DNA of 64,000 bases from Zygaena filipendulae (taxonomy: Eukaryota; Arthropoda; Insecta; Lepidoptera; Zygaenidae): positions 5,235,501-5,299,500 of the forward strand of contig OU015670.1 in the NCBI GenBank assembly GCA_907165275.2, in the 5' to 3' direction. Under the pieces are notes generated by a model. The model had not been told where the DNA came from, made no database searches, and saw only the letters and a program-made list of their open reading frames with translations. Positions 3,338-64,000 of this stretch are shown here, piece by piece. The first letter of the stretch is position 1. Each line of letters begins with the position of its first letter. The position numbers and the translations under genes were made by a program.

Positions 3338-4128
3338 ACTGAAGGACATAGAGTACTTTTTTCCCGCAACCTCCGCGGGAACTCCGAAATTACCGCGGAT
3401 GAAATCGCGGGGGACAGCTAGTCTAATATATATAAATCACGGGTCACGTTGTTTGTCCGCGATGGACTCCGAAACTACTGAACGGATTTTGATAAAATTT
3501 TGCAACCATTTATAATATGGTCCAACTTAAAAGACAGGATAGTTTTTATCCCGGAATTCCCTCGGGAACTGAACTAAACATAGAGTACTTTTTTCCCGCA
3601 ACCTCCGCGGGAACTCCGAAATTACCGCGGATGAAATCGCGGGGGACAGCTAGTCTAATATATATAAATCACGTGTCACGTTGTTTGTCCGCAATGGACT
3701 CCGAAACTACTGAACGGATTTTGATAAAATTTTGCAACCGTTTATGATATGGTCCAACTTAAAAGATAGGATAGTTTTTATCCCGGAATTCCCTCGGGAA
3801 CTGAAGGAACTGCTTATCACCGTAAACTACAGCACTTTTCCCGGAATTCCCGCGGGAACTCCGAAATTACCGCGGACGAAATCGCGGGGGACAGCTAGTC
3901 TAATATATATAAATCACGTGTCACGTTGTTTGTCCGCGAAGGACTCCGAAACTACTGAACGGATTTTGATAAAATTTTGCAACCATTTTTAATATGGTCC
4001 AACTTAAAAGACAGGATAGTTTTTATCCCGGAATTCCCTCGGAAACTGAAGGACATAGAGTACTTTTTTCCCGCAACCTCCGCGGGAACTCCGAAATTAC
4101 CGCGGATGAAATCGCGGGGGACAGATAG
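3338..4128 (+). mobile_element. Head-to-tail array of four Helitron-like units
   Basis: Four CTAG-type 3' ends occur at 3421, 3653, 3898 and 4128 (the last reads GATAG). Each is preceded by a GC hairpin, with spacings of 232, 245 and 230 bp. Each unit holds the blocks 'cacgttgtttgtccgcg' and 'ggtccaacttaaaaga'. An inverted array of the same subfamily is at 8309-9080, and two further units are at 16881-17246. Confidence 0.7.
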
Positions 4129-4924
4129 TCTAATATAAATGTTAGAAGATAATAACTATTATGATTTTTTTTATAGAAGGTTTTTTTATATACTTGTAAA
4201 GTTTTATGTACTGTGGCATAGGAATGAATAATAATACATACCTAACTGAATATTTTATTCCAAATATATACATATTATGTCAGACTATTGGTCAGACTCC
4301 ACTCGCGCAGGCGAGCCGGTAAGAACCTATTGTAATACTTTGACGTCCTCTTGTGGTCACATTACACATTCATCATAGATTCTAATGGCTAATCATCGGT
4401 CAGCAAATTTTAAATTTTTAAAACGTTAATCGGCAGGGAAACGTATTCAGTCAGAAAATATAGTAAGTGCCATGCTACCTATTATTACCGAAACTGCCGA
4501 AACCTAACTATGGTCACAAAAATATAAATTTTGGTAGACTGAAAGTCTGATAAGGAAGATTCGTTTTGTTTTTGGCTTATCGCCGGCCACTGCCTAACCT
4601 ACAATGTCAGGGGTGCCCAGGATGTCCTGTATCTCATTGAAGTTGTGGACAAAAGTACATTTCAATCAATAGTACTCCAATAGTAATCAATAGTAGTCCA
4701 GCTGGTAATACAAATGATACAACCATGTATCACTAGAACCACCAGTAGGGAACAAGCGAATTTTCCTAAAACTATATATGTACCTACCTGTCTACATAAT
4801 ATATTAGTAATTAGATCAACAGCGAGTGCTTCAAAACGATTCCTAGATCCACATGACTCAGGATTGGTCCACCGCGCATCATGAGACAGCTGGGAACGGG
4901 ACCCTATTGCCCCCCCCCCCCTAG
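4129..4924. other. Intergenic, short repeats only
   Basis: No gene was seen. The segment 4675-4745 (with 'acaaatgatacaacc' and 'tatcactagaac') is repeated at about 5605-5675, where it can fold on itself. A run of C occurs at 4911-4922. Confidence 0.4.
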
Positions 4925-8308: not shown

Positions 8309-9080
8309 ATTTCATCCGCGGTAATTTCGGAGTTCCCCCGGGAATTCCGGGAAAAAAGTACTCTATGTCCTTCTTTGTACCCCTGCCAGTAGTTTACGGT
8401 GATTAGCTGTTCCCGCAATAATTCCGGAGTTCCCGCGGGAATTCCGGGATAAAACCTATCCTATCTTTTAAGTTGGACCATATTATAAATGGTTACAAAA
8501 TTTTATCAAAATCCATTCAGTAGATTCGGAGTCCATCGCGGACAAACAACGTGACACGTGATTTATATTAAGACTAGCTGTCCCCCGCGATTTCATCCGC
8601 GGTAATTTCGGAGTTCCCGCGGGAATTCCGGGAAAAGTGCTGTAGTTTACGGTGATAAGCAGTTCCCCGCATTAATTCCGGAGTTCCCGCGGAAATTCCG
8701 GGATTAAAACTATCCTATCTTAAGTTGGACCATATTATAAATGGTTACAAAATTTTATCAAAATCCGTTCAGTAGTTTCGGAGTCCATCGCGGACAAACA
8801 ACGTGACACGTGATTTATATTAAGACTAGCTGTCCCCCGCGATTTCATCCGCGGTAATTTCGGAGTTCCCGCGGGAATTCCGGGAAAAGTGCTGTAGTTT
8901 ACGGTGATAAGCAGTTCCCCGCATTAATTCCGGAGTTCCCGCGGAAATTCCGGGATTAAAACTATCCTATCTTAAGTTGGACCATATTATAAATGGTTAC
9001 AAAATTTTATCAAAATCCGTTCAGTAGTTTCGGAGTCCATCGTGGACAAACAACGTGACACGTGATTTATATATATTAAG
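8309..9080 (-). mobile_element. Head-to-tail array of Helitron-like units, minus orientation
   Basis: Unit ends (CTAG read on the minus strand) are at 8574 and 8826, 252 bp apart, with a further truncated unit from 8309. The units share 'aagttggaccatattataaa' with the plus-strand array at 3338-4128. Confidence 0.7.
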
Positions 9081-10682: not shown

Positions 10683-13600
10683 CTACGTCTTGCGCTGCGC
10701 GTTCTGATTGCGGTTGGCGTCGCGCTGGTAGTTGTTCTTGGGCGGTGTGCGGATGCGGCGGTCCTTCTTGCTTCGGTTGCGGACCACCTTACTGTGGATC
10801 GCGCACGACACGCAGTAGTGCAGCTTGGCGTACAGCTTCGGCAGCTGGAACGCTGCGGCGACACAAACACATTTACAGTGAGCTACGCCTGTGAAGCAAG
10901 GGGGTGGTATGGTGATGCCCCCCTGCAAAAATTTACACCATTGAAGATTTATCGTTTTTAATTTATGATCAAAATGGGGAAGCAGGGTGGGCACTGGGCA
11001 GTTAAGGTAGGCGCCCACTGGCCCGCGCCGGCCCAGTGTTGGCATTAATCGATTAATTTTTTAATCAATTAGTTAATTTGATTAATTTTAATCAGATTAA
11101 ATTAATCATGATTAGAATTAATCACGATTAAAAAAGTAATCATAATCATGATTATTGACGTTAATCATTAATCATAATCATTAATTTGATTAACGTGATT
11201 AAAAAAAAATACATCCATGTTATTAATTCTATGTAAAAGAAAATATGAAAAATAATGACACAGATTTTTTAAAATATTGTTAATTATTATTCAAAGAACA
11301 AACAAACAAATAATTTCTAACGTTCAAATACACTGAATTCTAGTTTTGAAGTATATTTTCAATCAACCTAAGTACCTCCAATTTTTACAATATTTCTTGA
11401 TGTTCAAGTTACATATTTTCATAACTAATCTTTTTTCAAATAAATCATCAGATAATTTATGTGCCCTAGGTTTATTTAGCATACTAGCTGTGCCCCGCGG
11501 TTTCACACGCGCTAAAAGTTTTTATACAACAACTTTTTTTCCTGACATCCGATTTCAATGAAACAAAACCTATATGTAGCTCCACCTGTGAAAACTGCAT
11601 GACAATCTGTTTAGTAGATTCGGAGATTATCGCGAACAGACAGACAGACAGAAAAGATTTATTAAAAACTTTTTTTGTGCTTGGTTACTTACTCTTCTTT
11701 TGCCACTATTTATATTTATATTTATTTTATTTTACTATTTCTTCACTCTTTTATCATTATTTTAGGTAAAAATATTCAATGTACAGAATCGAGGATTCTA
11801 CTCTTTTATTATAGAAGATACATAGTTGAATAGTCTTTTGGATTCAATCGGTATTTTGTTATTTGTATCTTTTAGCGCAGGGCATTTTTGTATTTTTTTA
11901 AGTTGGTTTAATTTTTTTGTAAAAATTTTGTTTATTTTTAACCGACTTCCCAAAAAGAGGAAGTTCTCAATTCGACGCGTATGTTTTTTTTAATGTTTGT
12001 TACCTCATAACTTTCGACTGCGTGAACCGATTTTGATGATTCTTTTTTCGTTTAAAAGAGTATACTCCCACTTAAGTCCCATTGCTACCAAGTCGGGATC
12101 TGATGGTGGGATCTTGGAGAAATCGAGGGAAATCTTCAAAAATTATATATACACCTATAGCGATTTGGGTATTTTTTATAGTAAATCGTTCATTTACTTT
12201 TGAAAAGTAAAATTTGAAGAAGTGAAACTGATGATGAAGACCACAGATGATCATCGGAACTACTCAACAATAATACGTATTTCACGGATTCCGACGAAAA
12301 TTGTTTTTTTTGTTTGAAAGGGGATACTCCCAAATTGATTCCATTGTCACCAAGTCGAGATCTGATGATGGGATCTTGGAGAAATCGAGGGAACTCTTCA
12401 AAATTTATAGGCACACCTATTGCGATTTGGGTAGTTTTTGTGGTAAATCATTTGTTTGCTTTCGGAAAGCAAAATTTGAAGAAGTGGAACTGATGATTAA
12501 GACCACAGATGGTTATCGGAACTACTCTACTAAGTCGGTGACAAACCAAATATGGAGTAGATGTGTAGTTGGGTCAAGTCCACTCCCGCCACGAGCTCGT
12601 CGTGAGCAGAGCAAACTAAATGGGCAGAACAAGCGGGCTTGGCACCGAATTCAAACCGATCAGTGGCAGCAAAAACTAATAATAATATTACGTGTATTTT
12701 TGTGTTTTGGAAGAAATCGGTATTTTGTTATTTTTAGTGTTGTGTTTTTGGAAGTCTGTTTTAATTTTTTTTGTTAAAATTTTGTTTATTCGCTTTTAAG
12801 GGGGCTGGTTTATAATTTATCAAAGTGACAACTCAACAAATCTAAGTAACCTTTTACAAAATATTGCTTTTCCCGATGCAGGGACGTTAATAATTGAGGA
12901 GTTCTCCTGCTACTCCACCATCAGCTCAACTTCACCATATGCATTGTAACAAATAAATTGCTTAGCAAGTATTTTAGAATAATCGAATCTCAAACTGTGA
13001 AATTGTATTTAATATTCAGTACTTCAGTAGTTCCGGTAACAATCTATGATATTCATCATCAGATCCACTTCATCAATTAGTGATTGTCGAAAAAAAGGAA
13101 CATCGTGTTAGTACTAAACTTCTTGTTTTCGTGTTGTCTATGTGATCACGTGGTCAAATTTTCAAAAGCTTATATCTCAGAAACTACGAATCCCAGACCC
13201 ATCGTGTTGGTACTCAAACTTCTTGATTTCGTGATGTCTATGTGATAACGTGATCAAATTTTTAAAGTTCATATCTCGGAAACTATGAGGCGTAGATCCA
13301 TCGTGTTGGTACTCAAACTGCTTGTTTCCGTGTTGTCTATGTGATCACGTGGTCAAATTTTCAAAAGCTTATATCTCGGAAACTACGAGTCCCAGACCCA
13401 TCGTGTTGGTACTCAAACTTCTTGTTTTCGTGTTGTCTATATGATCACGTGGTCAAATTTTCAAAAGCTTATATCTCAGAAACTACGAATCCTAGACCCA
13501 TCGTGTTGGTACTCAAACTTCTTGTTTCCGTGTTGTCTATGTGATCACGTGGTCAAATTTTCAAAGGCTTATATCTCGGAAACTACGAGTCCCAGACCCA

Positions 13601-16600
13601 TCGTGTTGGTACTCAAATTGCTTGTTTTCGTGTTGTCTATGTGATCACGTGGTCAAATTTTCAAAGGCTTATATCTCGGAAACTACGAGTCCCAGATCCA
13701 TCGTATTGGTACTCAAATTTCTTGTTTTCGTGTTGTCTATGTGATCACGTGGTCAAATTTTCAAAAGCTTATATCTCGGAAACTACGAAACCCAGACCCA
13801 TCGTGTTGGTATTCAAACTTCTTGTTTTCGTGTTGTCTATGCGATCACGTGATCAAATTTTTAAAAGCTTATATCTCGGAAACTACGAATCCCAGACCCA
13901 TCGTGTTGGTACTCAAACTTCTTGTTTCCGTGTTGTCTATGTGATAACGTGGTCAAATTTTCAAAGGCTTATATCTCGGAAACTACGAGACTACGCTTTT
14001 AAAAATTTGACCACGTGATCACATAGACAACACGAAAACAAGAAGTTTGAGTACCAACACGATGGGTCTGCGCCTCATAGTTTCCGAAATATGAGCTTTT
14101 AAAAATTTTATCACGTGATGACATAGACAATACGAAAACAAGAAGTTTGAGTACCAACACGATGAGTCTGCGCCTCATAGTTTCCGAAATATGAGCTTTT
14201 AAAAATTTTATCACGTGATGACATAGACAATACGAAAACAAGAAGTTTGAGTACCAACACGATGGGTCTGCGCCTCATAGTTTCGGAGATATAAGCCTTT
14301 GAAATTTTGATCACGTGATCACATAGACAACACGAAAACAACAAGTTTGAATACCAACACGATGGGTCTGCGCCTCATAGTTTCGGAGATATAAGCCTTT
14401 GAAAATTTGACCACGTGATCACATAGACAACACGAAATCAAGAAGTTTGAGTACCAACACGATGGGTCTGCGCCTCATAGTTTCCGTGATATGAGCTTTT
14501 AAAAATTTGATCACGTGATCGCATAGACAACACGAAAACAAGAAGTTTGAGTACCAACACGATGGGTCTGCGCCTCATAGTTTCGGAGATATAATCCTTT
14601 GAAAATTTGATCACGTGATCACATAGACAACACGAAAACGAGAAGTTTGAGTACCAACACGATGGGTCTGCGCCTCATAGTTTCGGAGAGATAAGCCTTT
14701 GAAAATTTGACCACGTGATCACATAGACAACACGAAAACAAGAAGTTTGAGTACCAACACGATGGGTCTGCGCCTCATACCGCCGCACTCAGAGTCGACT
14801 TTAATGATTACTTAGTTAAGTATAGATTTTTAAAACAAAACTGCCGCAATCAGACAAGTTCAATAAATTAATGTTAATTGGCATTTAACTAATTAAGTTA
14901 CATCTCATTAAATGCCAATTAACATTAATTTACTGAACGTCTCTGACTGCGGCAGTTTTGTTTTAAAAATCTATACTTAACTAAGTAATCATTAAAGTCG
15001 ACTCTGAGTGCGGCGGATAGTTTCCGAGATAGGAGCTTTTAAAAATTTGATCACGTGATCACATAGACAATACTAAAACAAGAAGTTTGAGTACCAACAC
15101 GATGGGTCTGCGCCTCATAGTTATCAGCGGACAACTAAATGAAACGAGTCAGCGGACAACTAAATGAAACGAGTGTGTACATACTCGCTCTCGCCAGGAT
15201 CGCTCGGGGTATCTCGGCGAATGTGTATACTGTATAGTCGATAGATAGATTTATTTATTTCGCTTCAACATCATTTACAGTATATACATGATATACACAG
15301 TGTATAAAAACCACACCGAACCGATACCCCTCGACTCGGCTTCGAACGTGCCTGCCTCGGCCGAGGCATGTCTACACGGACCCCACAGTCAGTCGTTTGC
15401 CGAGCGAAGCCTGCCTCGCGCGGCAAACGACCGACTGCTCACCCGATCCGACCCGGTTGGCTCGGCTTCTTACCCCTTGGCCACAGTCCTGGCGGTGGCG
15501 GTGGCGGTGGCGGCAGCGGCAAAAACAAATGGTAGACAACATAAGAAGTAGGCCACAGCTCGCGGAAGTAGGCCACAGCTATCGGCGGCGCGAGCTGTGG
15601 CCTACTTCTTATGTTGTCTACCATTTGTTTTTGCTGCTGCCGCCGCCGCCACCGCCGCCGCCGAGTCTGTGGCGCCGTCCTTGCGAGCTCGCCCGAGACA
15701 GGCGTATGCTCCCCTTCAAATAAATTAAATAAATAAATACGTAGTTATTAGTTAATCAAACAATCAAATTAACGATTATTGATTATGATTAATAATCTTA
15801 ATCATTTTAAATCTGATTATGATTAATTAATCTTAATCAAATTTTTTGATTATGATTTTTAATCATTAATTTTTAATCGTTAATCAGATTAACTTTGGGC
15901 CAACACTGCGCCGGCCGCACCGCACGCACATTGCTCATAAATGCCGGTGTACGGTGCGGGCGGCGCGGATAGTGCACGCAATGCTATATGAAATCATACA
16001 AAGCAAACTAAAATCCGTTGCGTGCCGTGCGTGCGGTGCGGGCGACGCGGTCGAAAAGCCGCCTGTCGCCTACCTTTATGCAAGAGGCCATATTATTATG
16101 GTAAACAGCAAAGTTAATGAAGTAGGTAAATTATTTGTTTTAAACATCATTAATTAAGATCACTGATTACATGACTGTGGTTAGTTCAGTTAGCTACGGC
16201 AATGGGCTATACAATAGAGAATTTTTGTGTTTATTTTTTATTATTATTTCCTTTGTGTATTAGTAATATAATAGCATTATTCTTTGACAAATATCTTTTG
16301 TACTTTCAGAGATATGATGACTCTTTAAAAGTTCAAGTTGGACAGGGAAAGCGCTAGTCCTATAGTGACGTCACGCGGCTTGTAAAGCCCTACAACCGCC
16401 ATACAAAATTTCGTTTTAGAAAGACACAGACATAGTCAAAATTAAACAGTTTATAACTATTTATAACTATATTTTGTCGCTTATGTTATGCTTATCCATG
16501 ATATTTTCGAGTGTAATAATTGGATATCAACATTTCAACAGTGAAATAGGCTATTATCACATATAGGGGGCTGTGAGTAGGGTTGCCAACCAGACAACAA

Positions 16601-18629
16601 TGAGAACCCCTGGAAACCGCTCTTGATACCGAGTACAGAACTCCACCTCATTTTGACCCAAAAACTATACATAAAACAACACAGTTTAAAAAAATACGCT
16701 CGAGTTTTCATGGTACATACGAATAAGGCACAATTAAAATTCGACCTTATTCCTATGAGATTTGAGTTCAATGTTCAATCCATTCGACCGTTTATTTATT
16801 TTCTATCATGAAGTTTAGAGTTCTGTTTTTTCGTTTACCATTGCCAATACTATCGAATTGATAATATATATGTATGTATACTAGCTGTCGCCCGCGATTT
16901 CATCCGCATTAATTCCGGAGTTCCCGAGGGAATTCCGGGATAAAAACTGTCCTATCTTTTAAGTTGGACCATATTATAAATGGTTACAAAATTTTATCAA
17001 AATCCGTTCAGCAGTTTCGGAGTCCATCGCGGACAAACAACGTGACACGTGATTTATATACATATACTAGCTGTCCCCCGCGATTTCATCCGCGGTAATT
17101 TCGGAGTTTCCGCGGTAGGGATAAAAACTATCCTATCTTTTAAGTTGGATCATATTATAAATGGTTACAAAATTTTATCAAAATCCGTTCAGTAGTTTCG
17201 GAGTCCATCGCGGACAAACAACGTGACACGTGATTTATATATATTAAGATTAGATTATAAGATAAGATAGGGTATGTTTACAGTATCAACTCGAATATTG
17301 ACCTCAAACTCTGTCGCTCGCCGCGCACCGGCCGCGTGAGCACTGAGCCCTATGAGTTACGAGTTACGACTTACGCACACACACTACATGCGTGCAGACA
17401 AGCCGGCCGCCCACAGTGGTAGTAGGGAGTTAAATAATTAATAATATCAAATAATATTACAATAATAATGCTTGGACATTATCACACTTCACCACCTGGT
17501 CTCAAACAAAGCAGTTTCTACAACAGCTAGTAGTAGATAGTATTTTATTATAGTATTCATCCAATTAAGGTGTGTACTAAACACCCAGAATCAGAAAAAA
17601 AACACTAATGTTAATAACATAATAAATTTTACTTTACTCTGATGCGGAGATCGAACGTGTGACACCCGGCATAGTGATCAATTACCATTATACAAACAGT
17701 GCTGTTGGTTTGCTTGTATGGAGTGTCACTGGTGTACCAGCGGTGAAAACTTACAGGGAGGATATACTGAGGCCTCATTGATGTCACGAACGGCGGCCGC
17801 TTCAACAATGTTCCTTATGACAAACTTCTTGATGGCCTTGTCTTTGGGCACACAGCGCGCGCAGTTGGTGCAGCGCACCGCCTTCACATGGCCTCGCCCA
17901 TGCTTGGACCGTCCTCCGTTGCGCCGTTTGCGAGTCTGATACATATTTTAAAAAGTATAGATATGAGAGAATTTTAAGAACCAATTGTTTTTCTATTGTA
18001 AAATCAAACAATGTCTAACCAACTAATAGTTATGCTTGTAACTCTTCTAACTGTGAAATTGGCAGAATCATCATTGGAGGATTGCAGTCATTAAACATTA
18101 AATTGGATGCAGGGATCAAACCCACTACACCTAGGATGGTAGTCAGATTTGCTAATCACTACACGAATGGTGTTGTCATGTCAACAAAGTTGTCTACACT
18201 AATATTCAGAAGTAAAGTTTGTTTCATCAGATGTAACAAACTTTACAGGGTAATCTCTGGAACTACTTAACCAATTCAAAAACTTCTTTCACCGATAGAA
18301 AGATACAGTATTTCTAGGTAACATATGATACTTTTACGAGTTCCCGAAAGAACCCGAAATTCGCGCGGGTACCCTGGACCAGTTATAGAAAAGAAGTGAG
18401 AATAGCACACTATGTCAGCAAGACACCGGATGAAAAAATAAAAACCTATAAAGCGTAAGTAATTTTGAAACCACATGCTGGAAAACACTATCCGCGATGT
18501 TTTGTGTTTATTTAACACTTATATAGAATTTTCATATTTAACTGTTTATGCACTCAGACCAATAACTTTACTATTATTGATATTATGATTAGCAATTTTT
18601 TTAGTAATTTCAACACGAATACATACCAT
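10683..18629 (-). CDS. RpS26: 40S ribosomal protein S26 (eS26)
   Basis: This is a structural protein of the small ribosomal subunit, located near the mRNA exit channel. Three coding exons read on the minus strand: 18627-18629 (ATG only, donor GTATGT), 17755-17935 and 10683-10852. The spliced product is 117 residues, in line with the family. Exon 2 encodes '[19 protein letters not shown]' and exon 3 '[19 protein letters not shown]', which together supply the zinc-binding cysteines of eS26. Introns are phase 0 right after the ATG, a common ribosomal-gene layout, and phase 1 after codon 61. The open frame continuing from exon 2 into 'VYPPCKF' is read-through into intron 2. That intron is 6.9 kb and is filled by a hAT element and a satellite palindrome, an odd load for a housekeeping gene. 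The C-terminal tail is basic and lineage-specific. Confidence 0.95.
11484..11660 (-). mobile_element. Helitron-like element nested in hAT-1
   Basis: The start 'ctagctgtgccccgcggttt' is the inverted CTAG end with a GC hairpin. The far end is near the 'gacagacagacag' run. Confidence 0.6.
11830..12960 (+). repeat. Repeat family A, copy 2
   Basis: It has the same order of blocks as 883-1790, including the tandem subunit (about 12010-12260 and 12300-12530). The foldback-derived tail 'ccgaattcaaaccgatcagt' follows at about 12645. The 'gcttttcccgatgcaggg' segment at 12860 is inverted relative to copy 1. Confidence 0.65.
13102..15119. repeat. Head-to-head 100-bp satellite palindrome
   Basis: Nine direct copies of a 100-bp unit (containing 'tgatcacgtggtcaaatttt' and 'atatctcggaaactacga') run from 13102 to about 13989. 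Nine inverted copies then run to 15119, interrupted by a 237-bp insertion. The 100-bp register is exact in the left arm. The array lies wholly inside hAT-1 and therefore inside RpS26 intron 2, so a primary RpS26 transcript would contain both arms. Short open frames in it are periodic artefacts. Confidence 0.9.
14780..15016. mobile_element. Foldback element inserted in the satellite
   Basis: The element has near-identical inverted arms of about 108 bp and begins ccgccgcactcagag. It interrupts a satellite unit whose uninterrupted neighbours read 'ctcatagttt'. Here ATA is present on both sides (14777-14779 and 15017-15019), giving a 3-bp target duplication by direct comparison with the empty neighbouring units. 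Confidence 0.8.
15125..15174 (+). repeat. 25-bp direct repeat, two copies
   Basis: 'cagcggacaactaaatgaaa'-type unit, repeated exactly back to back at 15125-15149 and 15150-15174. Confidence 0.8.
15386..15675. repeat. GC-rich foldbacks
   Basis: An inverted repeat of about 45 bp per arm (about 15521-15566 against 15592-15637) is flanked by inverted GGCGGT/GCCGCC runs out to 15479 and 15675. A smaller hairpin, 'cagtcgtttgccg' against 'cggcaaacgaccgactg', sits at about 15389-15437. Proline- or alanine-rich frames here are composition artefacts. Confidence 0.7.
15909..16880. other. Rest of RpS26 intron 2, left part
   Basis: The GC-rich flank to about 16073 ends in 'cgcctacctttatg', a partial inverse of 'ttaaggtaggcgcc' at 11003-11016. 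An older element may therefore have hosted hAT-1. The remainder is AT-rich without recognisable features. Confidence 0.35.
16881..17246 (-). mobile_element. Two Helitron-like units in RpS26 intron 2
   Basis: CTAG-type ends are at 16881 and 17067. The units are the same subfamily as the arrays at 3338-4128 and 8309-9080. Confidence 0.65.
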
Positions 18630-29571: not shown

Positions 29572-32500
29572 CTATTCTTCTTCGACCTTCGACTGTCGTT
29601 TCTTCTTCTTTTTCTTCTCGCTCTTTGGTTCTTCCGTGGGTGCTTCCGCCTCCACTTCCGGCTCCGCTTGCGCCTCTAGCGACTTCTTCTTCTTCTTTTT
29701 CTTCTTCTCTGAAACTGGCTCGACTGATTCACCATCCTCTATCTTGATTTCTTTTTTAGGCGTTTCCTGTTGACAGAAATGATGATGATTATTATTAGAT
29801 GATGAATGATTACATTGAGCTGTCATTTGTATCACACGCATGTAGTTATATCTCAAGATTCCTTTGGGCACTCTTTTTTGTACTTGAGCAAAAGTACCCT
29901 AAATTATACGCATTTCGCGCGTTCAAACATACCGATTATCGATCAGCTGAACTCACCACTTCCAATTTGATCCTCTTGGAGGAGGACGGTCCAGCGCCTT
30001 CACCTGCATCAGCCTCGTCCCTGTCCTGCGGCAGCTCACGCTTCATCGGCCTTTGCTCCAGCGTATTGTCCCCGGCTACTGCGTAGTTGAACACCTCGCT
30101 GCAACCACAAAGCCGTGTCAAAATATATCGACTGATTCACAGGTCAAAAGGGTCACGGGGTATAACGGTCGTTTTCCATTTTTTAACAGACTTCCCAAAA
30201 AATGTTTTTTTTACTCAAGAGTCCCAACCAACTGATTTCAAAATCCATAGAGGATCATAATGGTAAATTTTAAGGTTAAAAACACACAGTTGATGCGACG
30301 AGTTGTTTATTACCTATATATCAGGATAATATCATCCTATTCCAAGACCTAAAAAGTACACAGTAAGTAGCTGTGACCATGCAGTTAATATGTAAATTGT
30401 AGATACAAAATATGATCATTGCATAAACATGAGGCAGGGATCAAACCCGTGGCACCATGTGGTTAGCTAACCACTAAATTAACAACCCGATTGGCGCATT
30501 TGACGACCCGATTGGCGCAGTAGGTCACCATGCCTGCCCGCTAATCAAGGGGTTCCGGGTTCGATTTACGGCGGACTTTGTGTGATGAACACAGGGTTCC
30601 ATTTTCCAGTCTGGGCGTGTATCTTATCTATACTTATAATAAAACTGTAGAGAGGTCAATTCTGTACATTGAATAATTGAATATTCAAAATTAATATTGG
30701 AGGATGAATGGTGATCGTTACTGATGTCAAAAATGCAATCAGTAAATTTTTTGTCTGTCTGTATGTGCATGCATGGATCAAAAACTACAGAAGGGATTTT
30801 AACCAAACTTGGTACGATTGTAGTCCATACTCCTGGGCAGGTTATAGGCTATATAACATAACGCTAAGACACATAGGAGCTGAGCAGTGACGATAAATCT
30901 GAAGCAAGTCAAAAACGTTTACTCAATCACGCAAAAACGGCTGAGCGGATTTGGATGAAATTTGGCATGCACGTTGTCAGGGGTACAGAAAAGGACATGG
31001 GATACTTTTATCCCGGAATTCCCGCGGGAACTGAGAAATTACCGCGGGTGAAACCGCGGGGCACAGCTAGTATTATAATATATACTAGCTGTGCCCCGCG
31101 GTTTCACCCGCGTGTGTTTCGGAATTCCCGCACGAACTCCCTTTAGGGGGATGAAAAATAGATAGTAGCAGATTCTCAGGCTTACTGAATATGCATAAAA
31201 AATTTCATGAGAATCGGTCAAGCCGTTTCGGCTCCTCCGAAACGGCTTGAACGAACATTGTGACACGAGAATTTTATATATTAGATGTATGTAATAATAT
31301 GTAGTATATACTACGTTTGCTTAGGTTCCACGACACAAGCTTATTACTGTGTGGAATCAAGTAGATCTGTGTGTTGTCATGTGAAGTGAATTATTATTAC
31401 TAAATTAAAAATACTACCAATAAGGACACTCACGTCTTGCTGTGGTACTTTTCGAACTTGGCCTTCGCCTTGCCGGTACCGCTGATCCTCCGACAGTTGC
31501 CCTCCTCCATGGCACGCAGCTTCGCCTCCAGCTTCACCTTGTGTTCCGCCCCCAGCTCGAAGGTGACGTCCTCCCCGAAGGCGTCTACGCGGGTCGCGAG
31601 CGCAGCCTTCGCCGCCAGCATGCGCGCCATCTTCCCCTTGTTCTTGGTGCTGCATTGGCCTACCAGCTGCGCGTGGTATATCAGCCCGTACTTGGGTGTG
31701 TCTTTCTTCGTCTTCAACGCCCTGAACAAGGCCTTCTCTGCACCGAATATCTGTACTGTGGACGCCGGGTGCTTCGCCAGGTTCATCAATGAGCCAGCAT
31801 GGGCTATCAACCTCGCGCCCACATGCTCTCCGATCAGCACAGTTAGGTTCGGTGCCATTGCCATCATTCTGGCCTTCAAGTAATCTGTCAGATGTGTCCT
31901 ATAGTCAGTTATGGAAATTATTTCATCACACAAATTCTGTATATTCATGATATCGTCCTCAGATATCTCTGTGCCCATTGAGATCTCAGCTGCCTCCTTG
32001 ACAGTCTCCTCTAGATCTTGCGGTAGAATGTCTGACAGGTCTGTGTTAGATGCGTTCTCCCGCATGCCGATCAGTTTGACGACTTTGACGAACAATGTGT
32101 TATCTGTTACAATCTTGCCTAGCTCAGGGAAATGCCAGCCATACCACTCTCTCGCTCTCATGATGTAGTTGTTGAGCTCTTTGTCTAAGTCATCTAACAA
32201 GCATTGTGCTTGGACTATCATTGTATCAATCTTGTCGGGAGAGAATTTCAGTTTGTATCTAGATAGCGAATGTGCCAGACCCAAAGCCATTGCGGTCAAC
32301 TCTTTCTTTGGCAGTCCACTGAGTAAACTGTCTAACTGAGATCGGATGCATCTCATCAGTTCCTGCACATTTGAGTTGGAAACACACTGTACATTAAATT
32401 TCTCTCTGATGGCACTGCCCAACTTGGCATCTCCGACCAGCAGCTGATCCTGCACCTCCTTAATGACATGTTTCTTTAGAGTCTTCTTTAGCTGTTTGGA

Positions 32501-35500
32501 GATCTTGCCTTCAATGGTGGCTGTTGTGGCAGCAAGAGCTTCTGTTGTGTCCTCGAACTTGACAAAATTCTTAAGCTTAACTCTGCAAACATAAACAGTT
32601 TACATAGGCTTGTTTAACTTATCGTTTGGCAAGATACACACATGAGAAGTCACTAATTAACATTTCGAAATTGTAATTGTTTTTTTACACAGATGACAGA
32701 ACTCCTACTCATAAATCAAGAAGACTTCCGAAGTCAAAGTACTTTTAAGATATTTCAAGAGTGATTAAGAGAGAAATGAGACTTGGCTGATCCAATTTTA
32801 ACTTTTTTTTGGTTCACTGAATAATGCTATTTCTAGTAACAAAAAACTAGTGACAGTAGATATTTGCCAAAATTATGTCTGTAATCACAAAGAACAAGAA
32901 AAAAGAAAAATTACAAACGAAAACAGTACTAGCTTTAGTAAATACATGAGAAAGCTATGATGACTAGACAACCCGACTGGCACAGAGGTCACCATGCCTA
33001 CCAGCTAATCAAGGGGTTCCGGGTTCGATTCCCGGTGGGGGTGGACTTTGTGTGATGAACACAGGTTTCCATTTTCCAGTCTGGATGTGTTTATACAGAA
33101 TGTTGTTTTGGTCAGCAACGCGCGTAACGGAGGTAGTAATATAACTAATATGGGTTCTAAAAAAAATATAAAAAAAAAATATTTTTTATAATTCGGAACA
33201 TTATTTAAAAGAAAATCTCTGCACAAGATATCTAAAAATGTTTACATTAAATGGTAATTGGTAAAGCCTTAGCGCGTAGACTAGAGCTACGACATCTACG
33301 CGCTACGAGCAGCTACATCGCGCGTCGCGTCGTCGCCGGTACCTACTTAGGTAGGTACCTACTTTTGCACAAACGTTTTACCTATTTAGATCACGGTAAG
33401 TAAACAACACATTTTAGACTCTCTTTCCCTCCATACTTTACTGGGCTTAGGACCGGCAAAGGAACTGAATAATTTAGAAATTATTAAATTAGAAATGACA
33501 TTTTTATCCATTAATAATATCCATTAAAGTTCTATGGCGCTGTTATTAAGTACCTTTGGCGTATTTAAAAAGGTGAACGAACTTATTTACAATCATTAAA
33601 CGTGATTTACAAATTATTGATTACACATAACACGAAGTCTTCTAAAAGTTTTTTTTATTTACACTGATTTTACGTTAACGGTTTATCTGTTCAGTGTCTA
33701 CCGCGTTGCGCGATGCACACAGAAGCACGACATCGCAAATTGTCTTTTAATCACGATAAAACAGTTTCATTCTTCGTAATCACTTCTAAAGCGTTCAGTA
33801 TCTCTTGTTTTAATGTGTCGGCGTATTCGTCATGCGTACCACTTTACGTCACCCCACAAATAAAAGTCCAATTGAGTTAGATCGGGTGAACGTGGTGGCC
33901 ACGGTATGGGTCCACCTCTTCCTATCCAACGATCACCAAACTCCGATGTTAAATGGTCAATGCCAAAGCTTCGCCCAGCATCCCAGGTAGGTATTCGCGC
34001 GCGGCTGCGCACGAAAGTAGGTATTCAAGGACTGCATCTTGAACATTAACAGGGAGCCCAGATTGACCTCTACCTGTTGTGTGACGAGGTGTAGCGAATG
34101 TTACCCATTCCCTGAGACTAAAAACAACAGTCCTTATGGTGTAACGAGTTTCACTTGGACGAGTTGAAAACGTCGCACTCCACTCGGCCACACTATTCGC
34201 TTCATCTTCGCTATTACTAAATACTCAATAAATCGTAAATTTCACTATTGGTTAATCCTGCGAACGACCGAGCCATTTTAGCATAGAAACAACGCACGCG
34301 CAATAGCCGCGGCTGTGGGAGGCAGACTGGCTGGCGCCTGGCGCTGGCCGCTGGCGCTAGCGCCGGCGGGCGGGGGTGGCACATCGCCGCGCCCCCCGGC
34401 CCCCGCCGCCCGCCCGCCCCGCCGCATTCGCCCGCGTTCCCACCGAGGCGGGGTGTATGTAGGTACTATGTACGACGTACGTAGGTACTATTGCATGCCA
34501 TATGATGCGCGCCGCGCCGCGCGGTCAACGACCGGTAGCGTAGGCTCGCCCGCTTGTATAAACAAAATAAATAATTTTTTCGGATTTTCCTTGAAAAAAT
34601 AATTATTTTTTTTTATATTTTTTTTGACATCAGTATCGTTAGTACAACCACCTCTGTGACGGGCGTTGTTGACCAAAACAACAGCTTGTATATCTATTGT
34701 ATAATATATAAGTAATTCTATGTAGTATATACCACGTTTGCTTGGTTTCGACAACACAAGCTAATAATAGCTTACTGTGGGATCAAGTAGATCTGTGTGT
34801 TGTAATGTGGGTAAAAAAAAAAAGCTGCTAGTCTAAAGTCTAAACATAATCAACGTTATATTGAGTGCTATCATCCAACCCGTAACATTATTCTAGATAG
34901 CAAAAATTACAAATATTCAGTCTGCCATAAGACGTGTTGTCTGTGAATTTCTTCAAGTGACACTTCACTTCTTTAATTGTGACTGCTATTGTGACTAGCA
35001 CTTAAGTGATTCTTCTGTAGGTGTGAAAACAATTATCAGCTTGTTGGGGTCATGATTGATCTAATGGTAATATCTAGGAAAATGTAACCAAAACATGGTA
35101 TCCAACAAAGGTAGATCATATTAAAAACGAGTTTGCTGAACGCTCTGCTAGTCCACTCACCTGACACTGATATAACTATATATTTGCCAACAGATTGAAT
35201 GCCATTGTGTTTCTGAGTCAATCAGACTATCTAACACTGTAGTTTCTTGGGTGTAAACCTGTATTTACGGCGTAAATATACATAAATAGTGCCCAACAAT
35301 TGCGTTTGTGAATACACAATCAATAGTTCTATTGAACAGTCTAGACTCTAGAGACTAGACAAATATACTTACATGGAGGCTGCTCCCTCGGGCGTATTGA
35401 ACTCCTGGTGAAGGTCATCGATCTGGGACAGCTTGGAGTCATCCAGCAACTGTAATGAGATGTTATTTTAATCAAACAGTGCAATGGAAAGAAAGTTCAG

Positions 35501-51500: not shown

Positions 51501-52802
51501 TTCTGATTTATAAAAGAAAGTTTTAAATAAATAAAATATTAGGGCCATGCAAAAATTGTGGCTTAAGAAAATTTGTAAGTACTTATTAAGAAAGTGAATA
51601 ATTGAGATTGGTTTAGAACAAAAAGAGTTGAGATGTTACAGAGAGTGTGCATTCTGGCAGATTTTAGTAAGTAAATGTAACCCTCACCTGGCCTTGGAGA
51701 GCTGCCTGTAGCTGATGCTGAGCGTTCACAGCACGTTGGTGGAACTGCCAGAGTTTTATGAGCAAAGCTTTGCACTCCCAGCATATTTTATCCTCGTTTA
51801 TATTTAGCTGGCAATAAAAGATATTTTAGCTAGGATTTTACATGTTTAGCTTGAATTTATTTATTTATTTAATAATGGGCTAGTTGACTATTTTTTTTTT
51901 GGTTGGTATTGTAGATTTGCATTTCTTCTTTTTTTATGTAATCAAAAAATAACAGCGATACATTGAGTTGAAATTTCACATGATCTCACTAACCGGTGCA
52001 GTTAGAGGCTTATAGAGGTTAATGACTTCACAAGCCCCCACCTCAAACTTTAATGCGCTTTATCTCTGAATATTTTCATTAATTTGAAAAAGCAAAAAAT
52101 ATGTCTGGTTTTTTTTCTGACAGACTAAAAAAAACTTGTATAAAAGTAAACATGTACAAGGGTCATGCTTATTCCATAAGTGGAATTTCTTCCAGCAGAC
52201 CCGCAACAGGAAAATGGATTAGAATAGGTTGATCTAGTGTGCCTCAGTTTGATATATAAAATATACATAAATAATAAAACGAAATTCAAGAAATTTAGAT
52301 TATTTATGTATGTGTTTTCAAGTTCCAGAATGAGCAACTCTATTCTATCTATCTAACAGCCTCCTATATTATAAGCCAGGGGCACGGAACGATGATGATG
52401 CACTCGCAAACAACCCACCAAACAATGAGGCTGGATATTTATTAGGAAAGATGTATTTTGTAGATTGATGATTGAAAGTTTCCGCATTTCTACTTAAAAT
52501 GAATATAAATTATAAACGATAAACTATAATGGATAGATGTTCACCTCCACTAAGTTAATTAAAATGTAATGAAATATTATTACCATACTTTTCTATTTCT
52601 TACATTGGTAAAAGGCTCTCCCAAATCTGGATGAGAACAGAAACGGGACCTTTACCATTGTGTTTAGATTTACCTGGATGGCAGGTATGAGATGCAATAC
52701 ATATTGAATTTTCCAAAGGCTGGAAAGTTCTCTATCACTGCTCAGACAAGTGGAGCACACAACAGATTTCCAATACATTAACGTTCCTGTAAATTGATTC
52801 AT
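45542..52802 (-). CDS. ZAD-type C2H2 zinc-finger protein (gene 2)
   Basis: Putative nuclear DNA-binding protein, convergent with gene 1. Eight exons on the minus strand: 52674-52802, 51688-51807, 50671-51250, 48680-49059, 48321-48406, 46722-46853, 46035-46134 and 45542-45676. They are phase-consistent and give 553 residues. Exons 1-2 form the ZAD ('VVCSTCLSSDREL' and 'KICWECKALLIKLWQ'), with the intron at the same place as in genes 1 and 3. Exons 3-4 form a long polar, lysine- and asparagine-rich linker. Five C2H2 fingers follow, beginning 'FKCTTCILGFLNEYVYQDH' and ending with the finger CISCQVDFTNESALQLHNNR. The exon 3 donor (A|GTGAAA) is weak but is the only phase-compatible GT before the TAA, so this junction is the least certain. 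An alternative start is the internal Met at codon 9. Confidence 0.87.
46294..46349. repeat. Hairpin with 26-bp stem in ZAD gene 2 intron
   Basis: 46294-46319 and 46324-46349 are inverted with two G/A differences that would be G:U pairs in plus-strand RNA. The loop is 4 bases (ggaa). Confidence 0.8.
46409..46451. repeat. Hairpin with perfect 16-bp stem in ZAD gene 2 intron
   Basis: 'atccatactgttctat' is inverted exactly at 46436-46451, with an 11-base loop, 59 bp downstream of the preceding hairpin. Confidence 0.8.
46979..47406 (+). mobile_element. Two tandem Helitron-like copies in ZAD gene 2 intron
   Basis: CTAG ends are at 47173-47176 and 47403-47406, with near-identical bodies ('ataatatagcttatacatca'). 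This looks like a local duplication. Confidence 0.65.
47455..48005. mobile_element. Two SINE copies, inverted to each other
   Basis: The minus copy is 47455-47730 ('tgcgccaatcgggtcg' at its head). The plus copy is 47845-48005, with 'gattggcgcagtaa' and 'gaggttccgtgttcgaat'. Confidence 0.65.
48070..48243 (-). mobile_element. Helitron-like element in ZAD gene 2 intron
   Basis: It begins 'ctagctgtccccgcggtaat' and ends near 'acagggacagac', about 75 bp from exon 5. Confidence 0.55.
49160..50650 (+). repeat. Repeat family A, copy 3, in ZAD gene 2 intron 3
   Basis: The blocks 'gatgggatcttggagaaatt', 'gaagaccatagatggc' and 'ttgcatcgggaaaagcaat' occur in family order. The tail 'ggcaccgaatttgaactgat' follows at about 50482. 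It is more diverged than copies 1 and 2. Confidence 0.55.
51940..52140. repeat. Repeat shared with 20170-20370
   Basis: Both stretches run through 'aaaaaataac(a/g)g', 'cacaagccccca', 'caaactttaa(t/c)gc' and a final T run. Confidence 0.55.
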
Positions 52803-58499: not shown

Positions 58500-58612
58500 A
58501 GGTAAAGAAAGACTATCTGTTACTTTATCTTTCGAATCAAACATAGGACTGTTAATGCCATAGAGCATGTCAGGTGGTTAAGGATATTATGTTATCCTAC
58601 TAATATTATAAA

Positions 58613-59269
58613 CTAGCTGTGCCCCCTGGTTTCACCTGCGGAAATTTCGGAATTCCCGCGGGAATTCCGGGATAAAAAGTACCCTATGTCCTTCTCTTTA
58701 CCCCTGACAATGTGCATGCCAAATTTCATCCAAATCCGTTTAGCCGTTTTTGCGTGATTGAGTAAACATATACGAGGATAAGAGCTCGAAAGCGCATTTT
58801 CATTCGACTTGCTTCAAATTTATCATCACTGCTCAGCTCCTATGTGTCTTAGCCTTATGTTATATAGCCTATAACCTACCCAGGAGTATGGACTACAATC
58901 GTACCAAGTTTGGTTAAAATCCCTTCTGTAGTTTTTGACCCATGCGTGCACATACAGACAGACAGACAGACAGATAAAAAATTTACTGATTGCATTTTTG
59001 GCATCAGTATCGATCACCATTCATCCTCCAATATTAATTTTGAATATATATTCAATGTACAGAATTGACCTCTACAGTTTTATTATAAGTATAGAAGATA
59101 TGAAAGTGTGGATGTTTGTTACTCAATCACGCAAAAACACCTGATTTGGAAAAATTTGGCATGCACTTTGTCAGGGGTACAGAGAAGGGCATAGGGTACC
59201 TACTTTTTATCCCGAAATTCCCGCGGGAACTCCGAAATTACTGCGGGTGAAACCGCGGGGCACAGCTAG
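58613..59269. mobile_element. Composite: Helitron-like (-), family T, Helitron-like (+)
   Basis: The minus Helitron copy is 58613-58768 (CTAG at 58613-58616). Family T copy 3 is 58772-59094. The plus copy is 59097-59269 (CTAG at 59266-59269). The whole has Helitron-like 3' ends facing outward on both sides. Confidence 0.6.
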
Positions 59270-59299
59270 TTTTGTTATTTATGTTTAGCTCATCACACC

Positions 59300-59405
59300 A
59301 ATTCATTTCGGCGTAAATAACTTCAGAAGAAGAAAAATACAATTGAATTGGCTGTATGGACTTAACTTCCTTTGCCTTCCCCATTGGGGTAAATTTAACA
59401 AAAAA
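59300..59405. repeat. Family L fragment upstream of ZAD gene 3
   Basis: It is the inverse of the 37025-37120 block ('taaataacttcagaagaaga', 'gaattggctgtatggact'). Confidence 0.6.
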
Positions 59406-59467
59406 AATCTTGGTTGCTTGTTTGTTTTAATTCTGTTTGTTTCAATTTAGCAAAAAACAGTTCGAAA

Positions 59468-62400
59468 ATGTCTGAAACAAGAAGCTATGTGTGCCAAACA
59501 TGCCTGCGAACAGAAAGTGAATTGTGGCCTCTTGCTAGTTTATCAAATTTGTTACGAGAAATACGTTTGTGGGAGGTTAGTACCTAGGAGATAAATGATT
59601 GGTCTCCGCTGCGCTCCGACTAGATACCGCACTACCTGAGAACAGTAGCTCTTTGAATGCGGCACCTCTATTATTGTAGTGTGCATTGTCTATTTGCAAA
59701 GATGCTTGTGTGCGTGAAGGGACAGTGTTGTCAACTTTCAAACTTTTACCCGGTTATTGGCACAATTTATTTATGATGTAACTCTATTATGTACGAAAAA
59801 TATAAATATATATATAAACTGATATTAAAGCATTATTTGATTATTTAATTACAAATTACATTCCACTGACTTGCACTAGTTTCCGATACATCTGTCTTTT
59901 AGATTTTACATATTTTTGCAAGTTTTCCCTTTTCGTTATGTAATGAAGTCGAACTTGTAAATACTTTTCGACTATTAGCCGAATCAAATTAATTTGATGA
60001 ATAGCACCATTTACATGACTTGCACCAAAGTCAAAATATTTTCTAGACTCCGTTCCAATAAATCTCTTCATTATATCAATAACCATTTTTTTATAAATTA
60101 AATTTGATTTTATGTCTGATACTTTTTCTATATTCTGAATAACGGATTCGGACATCATACATATTAAAAATACATCTTCCGAGGCATACGTTAATCCACC
60201 TTTGTCTTTCAAAGTTACGAACTTGTGGAACCAAATGGGACTGTTTGAAGTTAAATTATCAATACAATCAAAACATTTCAATTTCTTTGTTAATGACTTT
60301 ACAACAAAACCGGCTATATAACCAATAACATGATTTTTAAAATTCGACATACATGGAATATCTAAAAATTCTGTAATTTCGTGAAATTCAGCTTCAACAG
60401 TCTCTAGTGCACTTAATAACATCGAATCTTCTTCATTGAACCGCTCAGACATCGTAGTTTTATTAATGCACGTAAGCGCTGAAGAGCAATTTAGCACAGC
60501 AATATTTTGTAATGGAATACAATTTCCAGTATCGCTTGTTTTTAATTCTAAATGACATAACAGTTTCCTGTATATGCCTTTGAATTGTTTAGTGTTGGGG
60601 TTATCGTTAAAACCACCATGCATTCTGATTGCACTAAACAATAATTCAATATGATCCTGATTAATTTTATAGGTTGAAATGAATTTTAGTATACCTTCAT
60701 CTAAGTATTTACATAAATATTTGAGACTTTCTATACACACTAACATTCCTAAAAATCCTGTACTTGCTTGAGTATTCAAAACAGGTTTAAAGCTTTTGAT
60801 AACTATTTTCATTTGTTGATTGTGCTCTTTATATGAACGTTTTCTAGAATGTTTTATATTTAAGTTTATAATATATTGTTGTGCATTGTCTAAATAAGCA
60901 AGAATGTAGTCTTTATTGCCATTAAAAATAGGGTGACTAAATTCATGCTGTTTCAAATCTCTAGTATTAAATATATCAAATAAATTATTCCATAATAAAA
61001 TAAACTTCTCCGTAGCTTCACTGCTTTTAAACTCAGGTAAATAAAGATCTTCTCTACAAAACTTCAGCGCAGTTGCAACGCTCCTGCTTAACAACTGTGA
61101 AGCAAGCTTTACCTTCATTATATTATTACGAAACTCTAAATGTCGTTTTGTTAATTTATTGGCTAAGTGAAGGCCTTCTTTTTCCTGCAACTCATGTAGT
61201 TTTTCCAGATAACTCCAATTAATTTCATTTTCATCATCATCTAGAAAAATCTTTTTGCTTTCGAAATGATTTCTGATTAATTTACACATATGAACAGGAT
61301 CAAGGAAAACAGCTACTTCTTCATTTGACGACGGGTGCTTGAAGGTAGTTTTCAACTTTTTGTGATCTTTTATTTGACATCCCAATATTTCCATGGCAGA
61401 TATATTTGTGGGATGTCCATCAAAGGTAACTGTTATAACACGCACGCCTACATCATGGCATTTCCTTAAACATAGTGAAATTAAATTCGATTTTTGTAAT
61501 CCTGATAGTCCATGCACTAAAAAGTAGCCTATAGGAAGTTTCCAGTGCTCAGTTAAACACACTAATAGGAAAACATATGCCTCTGATGCTAATACAGAAT
61601 TGTCACTTGTACCAGTGCCCATATCAACATACCCGTGGTTATGGTTTTGATCCCATATATTTTGTTGGCGTATGGCCATTTCGTCCGCCATTAGTGCGCA
61701 AATAACTTTGGCCTTAGCAGCTTTTAGTTTTAATAATGTGAACGCTTCTTCAGTAAAACCCGGAGCGCCATCGACGTTGCGATACCATTTGCCTAAAGTT
61801 TTTTTATGAGGTAAACATGTACTAAATTTACTCCTCACATAATCGTATGCTGATGGAGAGTAAAAATTTAAAGTTAGACAAAATTTCTTAAGTTCCGTAG
61901 TATATTTTGGCGTAATTTTCTTTGCATTTTTATGTTTTTTATATATATTACTAAACAAGTCTGCCGCGATAATATTTTTACATAAAATATTATATATATC
62001 ATTATCAATGAATCGTTCTTGCTTTAAAGACCTGATGATACTTCGTAAGCTACAATTAGCTTTTTTCAGTCGAAGATTCTTTTCACGCAAGGTTTTTATT
62101 ATTCTTGCATGTTTAAATTGCAAAATAGTCTTATCGCGAAGCTTTTTCTTTAGTTTTATTCTTCTTGGTGTATCAAAAATAGAACTGATATCGGAATAAT
62201 CATCAATTGGCGGAGTTTTAGCACCAGAAGCTGTAATTGTTTCTTTAATAACTGGTGTACTTGTACTTGTGTTTGGTTCTGCTACTACCGTACTGTTATT
62301 ATAAATGTTGTCGGATGGTACAGAAGACAAAAATAATGCATTCTGTGGGACAACTCCCTTAGACAATCTTTTTAAACCACTTTTTGTGGAGTAGAAATCG

Positions 62401-63657
62401 CTCTCATTGAAATGAGCTGAACATATTACACTGCGTTTCCCTGGTTTCCACCAACTTTCCTGTCGACTGAGTTGTACAATAGCAGTCCAACGATAAAAAA
62501 TAGCAGGATCAGCAGGAAATCTAAAACAAGCGAATGTAATAATAATTAATAAGACTGCATGCATATTTTATTGCATATAGTTACAACAAACAAACGAAGA
62601 TCGTTGTAATTCCACACACGTGAAGTTGATTGAACATTAAAATTTAAATTAAAAAATATTACAAAGACTTGCCTTAAATAATGAAATAATAAAATTCTTT
62701 TCTGAAATCCTAAATGAATATAGTAAGATTATTGTATGTAATATATATACTTATTCATTTTAATATTGAATGATGGAACAATCATTATTTCAAATATGGG
62801 GAAATGAATTTTATGGCACGGCAACACTGAATAGCAATATGTCACAAATTGTTATTGTTTATATTTCTAGTTGTTTAACGTTGAAATTAACAAAATACAG
62901 AATACTTACTGATGGTATGTGATTCCTGTGTCTTTCTTATTTTTTGTAGTATTATTTTTACACAACTTGACTACACAACCCGGCATTTTTCTTTGTGTTT
63001 TTCGTCAAGTTTAACAGAACACGTGACACGTCAACGCGACACTTTGGTTGCAACAAGACTGACTCGAGTACGCCAGAATAGGCGTAGTATCTGTTGCCGC
63101 ATTTTACTAGTGCACCGGCGGTATCTAGTCGGAGCGCAGCGGAGACCAATCATTTATCTAAGGGTAGTTAAGATGAACTAGATGTTCTTTGCATTTTACC
63201 CGCGTCTCTCGCGTAAATTCGAGAACAACAGGATGAAAATTCTTTGTTAGCTGGCGTCAGCATGGCGTAAACACTCCCCATAGACTTATTAGATGCCAAA
63301 TATCAGTTTTAAATATCTTCACACAAACAGGACCCCTATTTCACTCCCTTACAGGTCGAGTTTGGAAAATCCTTCTTAAGTGCTTGACTACACTATTTCA
63401 GAAACTTTTTTGCCAAATTTTTAGGTACCAGAGTTAGTGTGTTATAGGTATGCCTCTGGAAATTAAAAATTTAGTGTTTTTTGTACCCTTAACATAATTT
63501 TGTACTTTTTAATTAACTTATTGATACCAACTCATTGTTTCAGCTGAAGAGCACATCAGGTGGTGTCTGTATTGAGTGTAAGCAGATAATGACAAACTTC
63601 AACAGTTTCCGAGAGCAGGTTCAACGAGTACAAGATACTCTGCATGATGTTAAGGAG
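59468..63657 (+). CDS. ZAD-type zinc-finger protein (gene 3), N-terminal part
   Basis: The first two coding exons are visible: 59468-59575 (MSETRSYVCQTCLRTESELW, donor GTTAGT) and 63544-63657 ('VCIECKQIMTNFNSFREQV', donor GTATAC). Joined in phase 0 they give a complete ZAD, with CxxC in exon 1 and CxxC in exon 2 and the intron at the same position as in genes 1 and 2. Later exons, presumably linker and C2H2 fingers, lie beyond the right edge. The 3968-bp ZAD intron is almost entirely a P-element-like transposon whose left end begins 13 bp after the donor site. An acceptor-like 'ttcaatttag' 18 bp upstream of the ATG suggests a non-coding first exon. Confidence 0.82.
59589..59630. repeat. Left terminal inverted repeat of the P-like element
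   Basis: Exact reverse complement of 63118-63159 over all 42 bases. Confidence 0.95.
59856..62986 (-). CDS. P-element-like (THAP9-type) transposase
   Basis: DNA transposase acting on the enclosing element. Two exons on the minus strand, 62910-62986 and 59856-62520, join in phase 2 across a 389-bp intron and encode 913 residues without internal stops. Residues 1-88 are a full THAP domain (MPGCVVKLC ... FPADP ... W37 ... C59SAHF ... VVP84), with zinc ligands C4, C9, C59 and H62. A leucine- and lysine-rich coiled-coil follows at about 155-200. The RNase-H-like core shows D305 in 'ALMADEMAIR', D393 in 'TVTFDGHPTN', a 'FLDPVHMCKLIRNH' block near 431 (the insertion-domain region in P transposase) and E651 in 'HIELLFSAIRMHGGFNDNP'. 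These match the acidic catalytic positions of P-family enzymes as far as can be judged by eye. The open frame continuing upstream of 62520 (MHAVLLIII) is intron. An ATTAAA at 59844-59849 may serve polyadenylation. Confidence 0.95.
63118..63159. repeat. Right terminal inverted repeat of the P-like element
   Basis: Partner of 59589-59630; ends 385 bp upstream of ZAD gene 3 exon 2. Confidence 0.95.
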
Positions 63658-64000
63658 GTATACCTAGTACTTTTATTAAAGTTAAATGGTGCCCATAAAA
63701 TTAATAGATGTAGAACCACTTTTGGTACAGACAGAGTTATGCAATCTCACTGGTGCTTTAAACAAAGCTACCACATATCTGTGCAAACATTACTTTGCAC
63801 AAGTTTTACACACATTGCTTCTGTGGTTCCATTTCAAATGAAAGGAACTAACTCTATGTGTAATAATATGTCAATGTTGCTGACTATGTATGAATCAAAT
63901 TAGGGTAGCGCAGGCATAAAAGACTATTTAAAAGAAGATTTTTAAAAGCCTCAGACATTTCCTATTTAGTACTTAATATGGAAATATATAAACTTGTGTT
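63658..64000. other. Start of ZAD gene 3 intron 2
   Basis: The open frame running through the donor to 63903 is intron read-through. No further exon was recognised before the edge. Confidence 0.5.

Follow-up and report, generated by a model that had tools for sequence, protein, structure and literature searches.

The window analysed here is a stretch of 64,000 nucleotides from Zygaena filipendulae (Lepidoptera, Zygaenidae; contig OU015670.1 of assembly GCA_907165275.2, positions 5,235,501 to 5,299,500), and all positions below are counted within it. At 59589..63159 lies a P-like element of 3571 bp, in which a transposase gene on the minus strand is enclosed by perfect terminal inverted repeats (TIRs). 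The left TIR (59589..59630, plus strand) is located past the 3' end of the transposase gene, and the right TIR (63118..63159, minus strand) on its 5' side. The two repeats, separated by 3487 nt, are complementary at 42 of 42 positions, in agreement with a preliminary description of this DNA that had placed perfect 42-bp termini at 59589 and 63159, and a chance origin of such a pair is not credible. The same description had considered that the termini might turn out to be shared host repeats. No such repeat is present in the window, where the next best ungapped match of the 42-mer carries 18 mismatches in 42 and blastn (E <= 0.01) finds no further copy of the element, and the idea that the TIRs represent a repeat common to other sites of the window is thereby ruled out. 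Nor does the window hold other convincing pieces of transposase, the sole tblastn match (52092-52223, E 0.093) being disregarded. No relative was found in viral and prokaryotic contig collections, as expected for such collections; the best match in a viral fold library has an E-value of 0.044, and nothing in Rfam reaches the gathering score.

The transposase gene is predicted to comprise two exons on the minus strand. Exon 1 (62910..62986; 77 nt, 25 codons and 2 nt) contains the start codon, an ATG at 62986, and the first part of the THAP domain. It is followed by a GT-AG intron of 389 nt (62521..62909) and by exon 2 (59856..62520), to which prediction and profile matches assign the remaining THAP domain, a long helix that is probably a coiled coil, a helix-turn-helix (HTH), an RNase H domain split by a guanosine triphosphate (GTP)-binding insertion, a C-terminal domain and the stop codon. 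The spliced frame encodes 913 residues with no internal stop, and the two-exon, 913-residue transposase of the preliminary description is thus reproduced, with the 62909/62521 junction exact. Its statement that the THAP domain and the catalytic acidic residues are intact is likewise borne out. The THAP domain, the HTH, the N- and C-terminal halves of RNase H and the GTP-binding insertion all exceed their Pfam cut-offs, and D305, D393 and E651 align with D230, D303 and E531, the residues named for the Drosophila P transposase triad in PMC7776569. All three are invariant in 11 aligned sequences; across 72 aligned sequences two are invariant and the first is conserved in at least 90%. The eight named GTP-contact residues are all identical to those of Drosophila. 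By domain homology, the D-D-E triad and the GTP contacts, the transposase is, as judged from its sequence, a clear member of the P/THAP9 superfamily. With high confidence as to its identity, we consider the element to be a near-complete cut-and-paste transposon of this superfamily, probably autonomous, which sits in antisense orientation within a coding intron of a lepidopteran ZAD-type gene.

The transposase intron is in phase 2 and immediately precedes the conserved FP in the THAP domain. The same phase-2 intron seems to recur in relatives. Four of the listed relatives open with short stretches ending in ...RFP, which may be read as the ends of an unspliced intron, and in several full relative models (e.g. 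Chilo P0016, P0018 and P0034) H-[KR]FP is continuous across the intron point. The first intron of human THAP1 presumably lies at the same place. Retention of the transposase intron would end the frame directly after codon 26, and splicing of this intron is therefore a possible off switch, in contrast to Drosophila P, where the switch is at the third intron. The frame of exon 2 is open upstream into the 62521-62909 intron and contains an in-frame ATG there, from which translation could yield a protein without the initial portion of THAP; the relative P0002 starts much like this predicted form. In the C-terminal part encoded by exon 2, past the stretch aligned to PDB entry 6p5a, C775 and C778 are invariant and H861 and H867 are conserved in at least 90% of the 72 aligned sequences. 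These four residues could be a zinc site.

The host gene is represented on the plus strand by a predicted coding exon of 36 codons that includes the start codon (59468..59575), an intron of 3968 nt (59576..63543; 397 nt when the element is subtracted) and a next predicted coding exon of 38 codons (63544..63657). The two exons join in frame to give a 74-residue peptide, which matches zf-AD with an E-value of 7.2e-6 and 26.6 bits, under the curated cut-off of 28 bits. The preliminary description had assigned the insertion to an intron of a ZAD zinc-finger gene; the location between two ZAD-type exons stands, while the domain assignment has to be read with its score below the cut-off, and any zinc fingers would be encoded beyond the window. 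The left TIR begins 13 nt past the end of the host exon (GTTAGTACCTAGG), just as had been described, and the host donor GAG/GTTAGT is intact. An effect of the antisense element on host splicing is possible.

The TIRs, the open gene, the domains, the catalytic and GTP residues and the fold were all computed. By analogy with Drosophila P, we infer that the gene is spliced in vivo, and that its product recognizes a THAP site, dimerises, is catalytically active and renders the element mobile. The THAP domain of the spliced 913-residue transposase would bind two subterminal AATGCGGCA sites, and the HTH would bind the inner TIR. Within the dimer, GTP held by the insertion domain would position the element end, and D305, D393 and E651 would cut and join in a cut-and-paste reaction with GTP-dependent strand transfer. 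The perfect TIR pair together with the open frame points to a young or selected copy. Recent activity or selection had been suggested in the preliminary description, and the TIRs and frame fit such a copy; recent activity is a possibility that has to be set against the lack of an ordinary P duplication.

Several observations on the ends, the candidate THAP sites and the flanks of the element weigh against its interpretation as a cut-and-paste transposon of the P/THAP9 superfamily. The TIR begins AGATAAATG, and the ends lack the initial CA that is usual for P elements. The candidate THAP-domain sites are an exact inverted pair of the 9-bp repeat AATGCGGCA, which has exactly two copies in the window, at 59656..59664 (plus strand, bp 68-76 from the left end) and at 63095..63103 (minus strand, bp 57-65 from the right end). 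Their distances inward from the TIRs are 25 and 14 bp, an offset of 11 bp between the ends. Over the 100 bp that adjoin the TIRs on the inside, a pair of at least 9 bp appears in 37 of 600 shuffles and in 34 of 600 random window pairs; within bp 43-80, a zone picked after seeing the pair, the corresponding counts are 11/3000 and 26/3000. The outcome varies with the zone, and the pairing is only weakly significant. The repeat contains the GGCA core and fits TXXGG, yet it lacks both the T of the human THAP1 site TxxxGGCA (PMC4177242) and the third G of the THAP consensus TXXGGGX(A/T) (PMC3464256). With this partial match to the published THAP1 and P sites it is no textbook THAP site, and its assignment as a pair of THAP-domain sites, made by analogy, is suggestive only. 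For zebrafish, the THAP-domain motif obtained by systematic evolution of ligands by exponential enrichment (SELEX) was likewise not found in its element (PMC10983969). The THAP sites of Drosophila P are located at bp 53-63 of the 5' end and bp 41-51 of the 3' end, and those of Galileo ~70 bp in (PMC3688188). Another source gives the Drosophila P spacing as 9 bp at the 5' end and 21 bp at the 3' end, and likens it to the 12/23 spacing in V(D)J recombination (PMC7776569). The two papers conflict on which P end has the longer spacing, and the 12-bp offset is common to both.

A target-site duplication was sought at symmetric boundaries shifted by up to 12 bp to either side of the element ends (offsets -12 to +12), using 8-mers and 7-mers. 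No 8-bp duplication is recognisable, a point that, like the 9-bp pair, does not appear in the preliminary description: the best 8-mer at any offset agrees at 5 of 8 positions, and 11,487 of 20,000 random placements give at least 5/8. Among 7-mers, scored without a control, the best candidate outside the TIR interior agrees at 5 of 7 positions (CTAGGAG/CTAAGGG, offset +2), and a 6/7 match at +12 lies entirely within the TIRs, where the sequence is a near-palindrome. The two 31-bp flanks compared share no exact direct repeat of 5 bp or longer. Since the TIRs are perfect, decay of an original duplication is unlikely under a simple equal-rate model, in which perfect TIRs and three or more mismatches in eight would occur together with a probability of at most 7e-4. 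The duplication was therefore either removed by an event or never made. A nested insertion splitting the duplication was rejected, the left 8-mer recurring (with one mismatch) only at 63661, past the next host exon, and the right 8-mer being absent from 58501-59588. Ectopic recombination with exchange of flanks is known for Galileo (PMC2775673), yet here such recombination, or a large rearrangement between the ends, would split the host exons. Because these are collinear and in frame, probably only a local event is left. Identical duplications are reported for ~89% of the Galileo copies with preserved ends (PMC4168063), from which it follows by subtraction that ~11%, about one in nine, have none; the single copy studied here therefore says little, and a local event is our first choice. 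We give about an even chance to a loss of the duplication after insertion, through a short deletion or some other local change in the intronic sequence next to one of the ends. The duplication is a scar of one copy and the superfamily is assigned by the transposase, and for this reason the protein, not the insertion event, is filed as P-type.

The missing duplication can also be accommodated by a domesticated P-derived gene with a host regulatory role like that of vertebrate THAP9, whose TIRs would be fossil; the unbroken 913-residue frame, in which every catalytic residue is kept, agrees with this as well. However, fossil repeats would drift, and those found here are identical over 42 bp. Human THAP9 is not flanked by TIRs at all (PMC7776569), and the loss of TIRs expected of a domesticated THAP9-type gene has not taken place in this element. 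As its relatives are moreover many and divergent, with several in one moth species, we regard domestication as very improbable. Alternatively, the element could belong to a lineage without the usual 8-bp duplication, with variant P ends characterized by the 42-bp TIR starting AGATAAATG, sites offset by 11 bp, and another duplication or none. Perfect TIRs without a recognisable duplication are in line with this, as are a TIR longer than in P (31 bp) and in Anopheles P (27-31 bp), and a best imperfect candidate of 7 bp, namely the CTAGGAG/CTAAGGG pair mentioned above. Against it stand the single copy, to be viewed beside the Galileo copies that lack identical duplications, the duplications of 7-8 bp reported for Drosophila P, Anopheles P, zebrafish Pdre and Galileo (for the latter in PMC4168063), and the conservation of the GTP site and catalytic core, which together make variant ends distinctly unlikely. 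A lepidopteran P lineage with an end grammar of its own, combining long TIRs, THAP sites 25 and 14 bp inside them and no ordinary 8-bp duplication, would be an unlikely case. The offset of 11 bp between the ends would then amount to one helical turn (Drosophila P has 12 bp, V(D)J recombination the 12/23 spacing), and unequal end spacing would be an old and general property of P transposases.

Horizontal transfer could in addition have brought the element into the Zygaena lineage or into that of Colias, which is compatible with our preferred identification. Of the protein relatives, 121 pass E <= 1e-3. The first of those listed is a transposase-like protein of Colias eurytheme (P0001) with 75% identity (77% in the multiple alignment), followed by P0002-P0011, including one from Plutella xylostella, at 50-55%; these identities span 75-97% of the query. 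The set of sequences ranked directly behind Colias, Plutella among them, reaches 50-58%. Among the 120 matches listed, further relatives come from other moths and butterflies, a beetle, aphids, a mayfly, spiders, ants, fish and coral. In a tree of 72 transposases, the element and Colias are sisters (support 1.0) at a distance of 0.26, inside a 28-member group (support 1.0) in which every sequence with a name is lepidopteran (Colias, Plutella, two from Chilo, Heliothis). The smallest of the eight other printed distances is 0.96, and the other named Lepidoptera measured lie at 1.03-1.65. The host gene NOP58 (31430-32599) served for comparison; among the 120 matches listed, it shares 88-92% identity with named Lepidoptera from many families, compared with 79-83% for the remaining named insects, which marks the window as lepidopteran. 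While the transposases are sisters, a NOP58 tree built from 44 of these 120 matches parts the host from Colias, which groups with Leptosia and Pieris. The NOP58 distances are 0.16 to Colias and 0.446 to Tribolium, and the transposase distance to Phaedon is 2.0. Scaled by the beetles, NOP58 predicts a distance of ~0.7 between the window and Colias transposases, and the observed 0.26 is about a third of that. However, the comparison relies on one slow host gene, whose branch in the host is long and weakly placed (the printed nodes around it have supports of 12-56), and C. eurytheme was used in one comparison and C. croceus in the other. Transposase paralogues may also predate the split of the hosts, and the 0.26 is a distance between predicted proteins. 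Horizontal transfer is thus best taken as a tentative possibility. The long NOP58 branch among the compared Lepidoptera is odd for such a conserved protein and may reflect a fast lineage. A short repeat of the CCGCGG...CACAGCTAG type is abundant; it occupies 59119-59282 and more than 20 other places in the window, and is also found in or next to the tandem arrays 3346-4137, 8389-9072 and 16877-17241. A 100-bp minisatellite of 8.9 copies (13101-13989) is directly followed by 7.8 copies of what is apparently its inverted unit (13998-14779).

Comparison with known systems places the element among full-length P relatives. With P of Drosophila melanogaster (PDB 6p5a, 6pe2) it shares the THAP domain, the HTH, the split RNase H with its GTP-binding insertion, perfect TIRs, the triad and the eight identical GTP contacts. 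The candidate subterminal sites (bp 68-76/57-65) would, if bound by THAP, resemble those of P (bp 53-63/41-51; PMC3688188) in their unequal distances from the two ends. It differs in TIR length (42 versus 31 bp), size (3.57 versus 2.9 kb) and number of introns (one predicted versus three; PMC7776569), in an identity of 25% in the aligned core, and in a copy without a recognisable 8-bp duplication. Colias eurytheme P0001 and P0002-P0011 have the same transposase domains, but are known here as predicted proteins alone, and P0001 as listed lacks the THAP domain. In Anopheles gambiae, seven P subfamilies include autonomous elements that are likewise full-length, with TIRs and coding capacity, but differ in having TIRs of 27-31 bp and perfect 8-bp duplications (PMC1562414). 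Zebrafish THAP9/Pdre2 combines a full-length transposase bearing a THAP domain with P-like ends (PMC10983969), yet Pdre2 has 13-bp TIRs, distant 12-bp subterminal repeats with 400-bp spacers, and 8-bp duplications (PMC7776569). The view, expressed in the preliminary description, that P-like sequences outside Drosophila are mostly immobile or degraded is overstated, given the autonomous Anopheles subfamilies, the excision (without transposition) of Pdre2 by zebrafish THAP9 (PMC10983969) and the P elements listed for the moth Helicoverpa armigera (PMC7764229). The titles and abstract starts covered in the open-access literature contain no description of P-element ends in Lepidoptera, from which no absence should be concluded, and the passages of PMC6327564 and PMC6562904 covered are silent on P ends.

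Full-length relatives of P have already been described from outside Drosophila, and the element is a well-preserved further member. As it stands, it is one copy of a known superfamily, without a recognisable duplication. Full-length P relatives from outside the flies with intact ends offer a means to study the pairing of unequal ends by GTP-dependent P transposases, and relatives of this type might find use in Lepidoptera as gene-transfer tools. Should the THAP sites prove to be unequally spaced across copies, P elements and RAG would be tied more closely together in the way that ends are paired.
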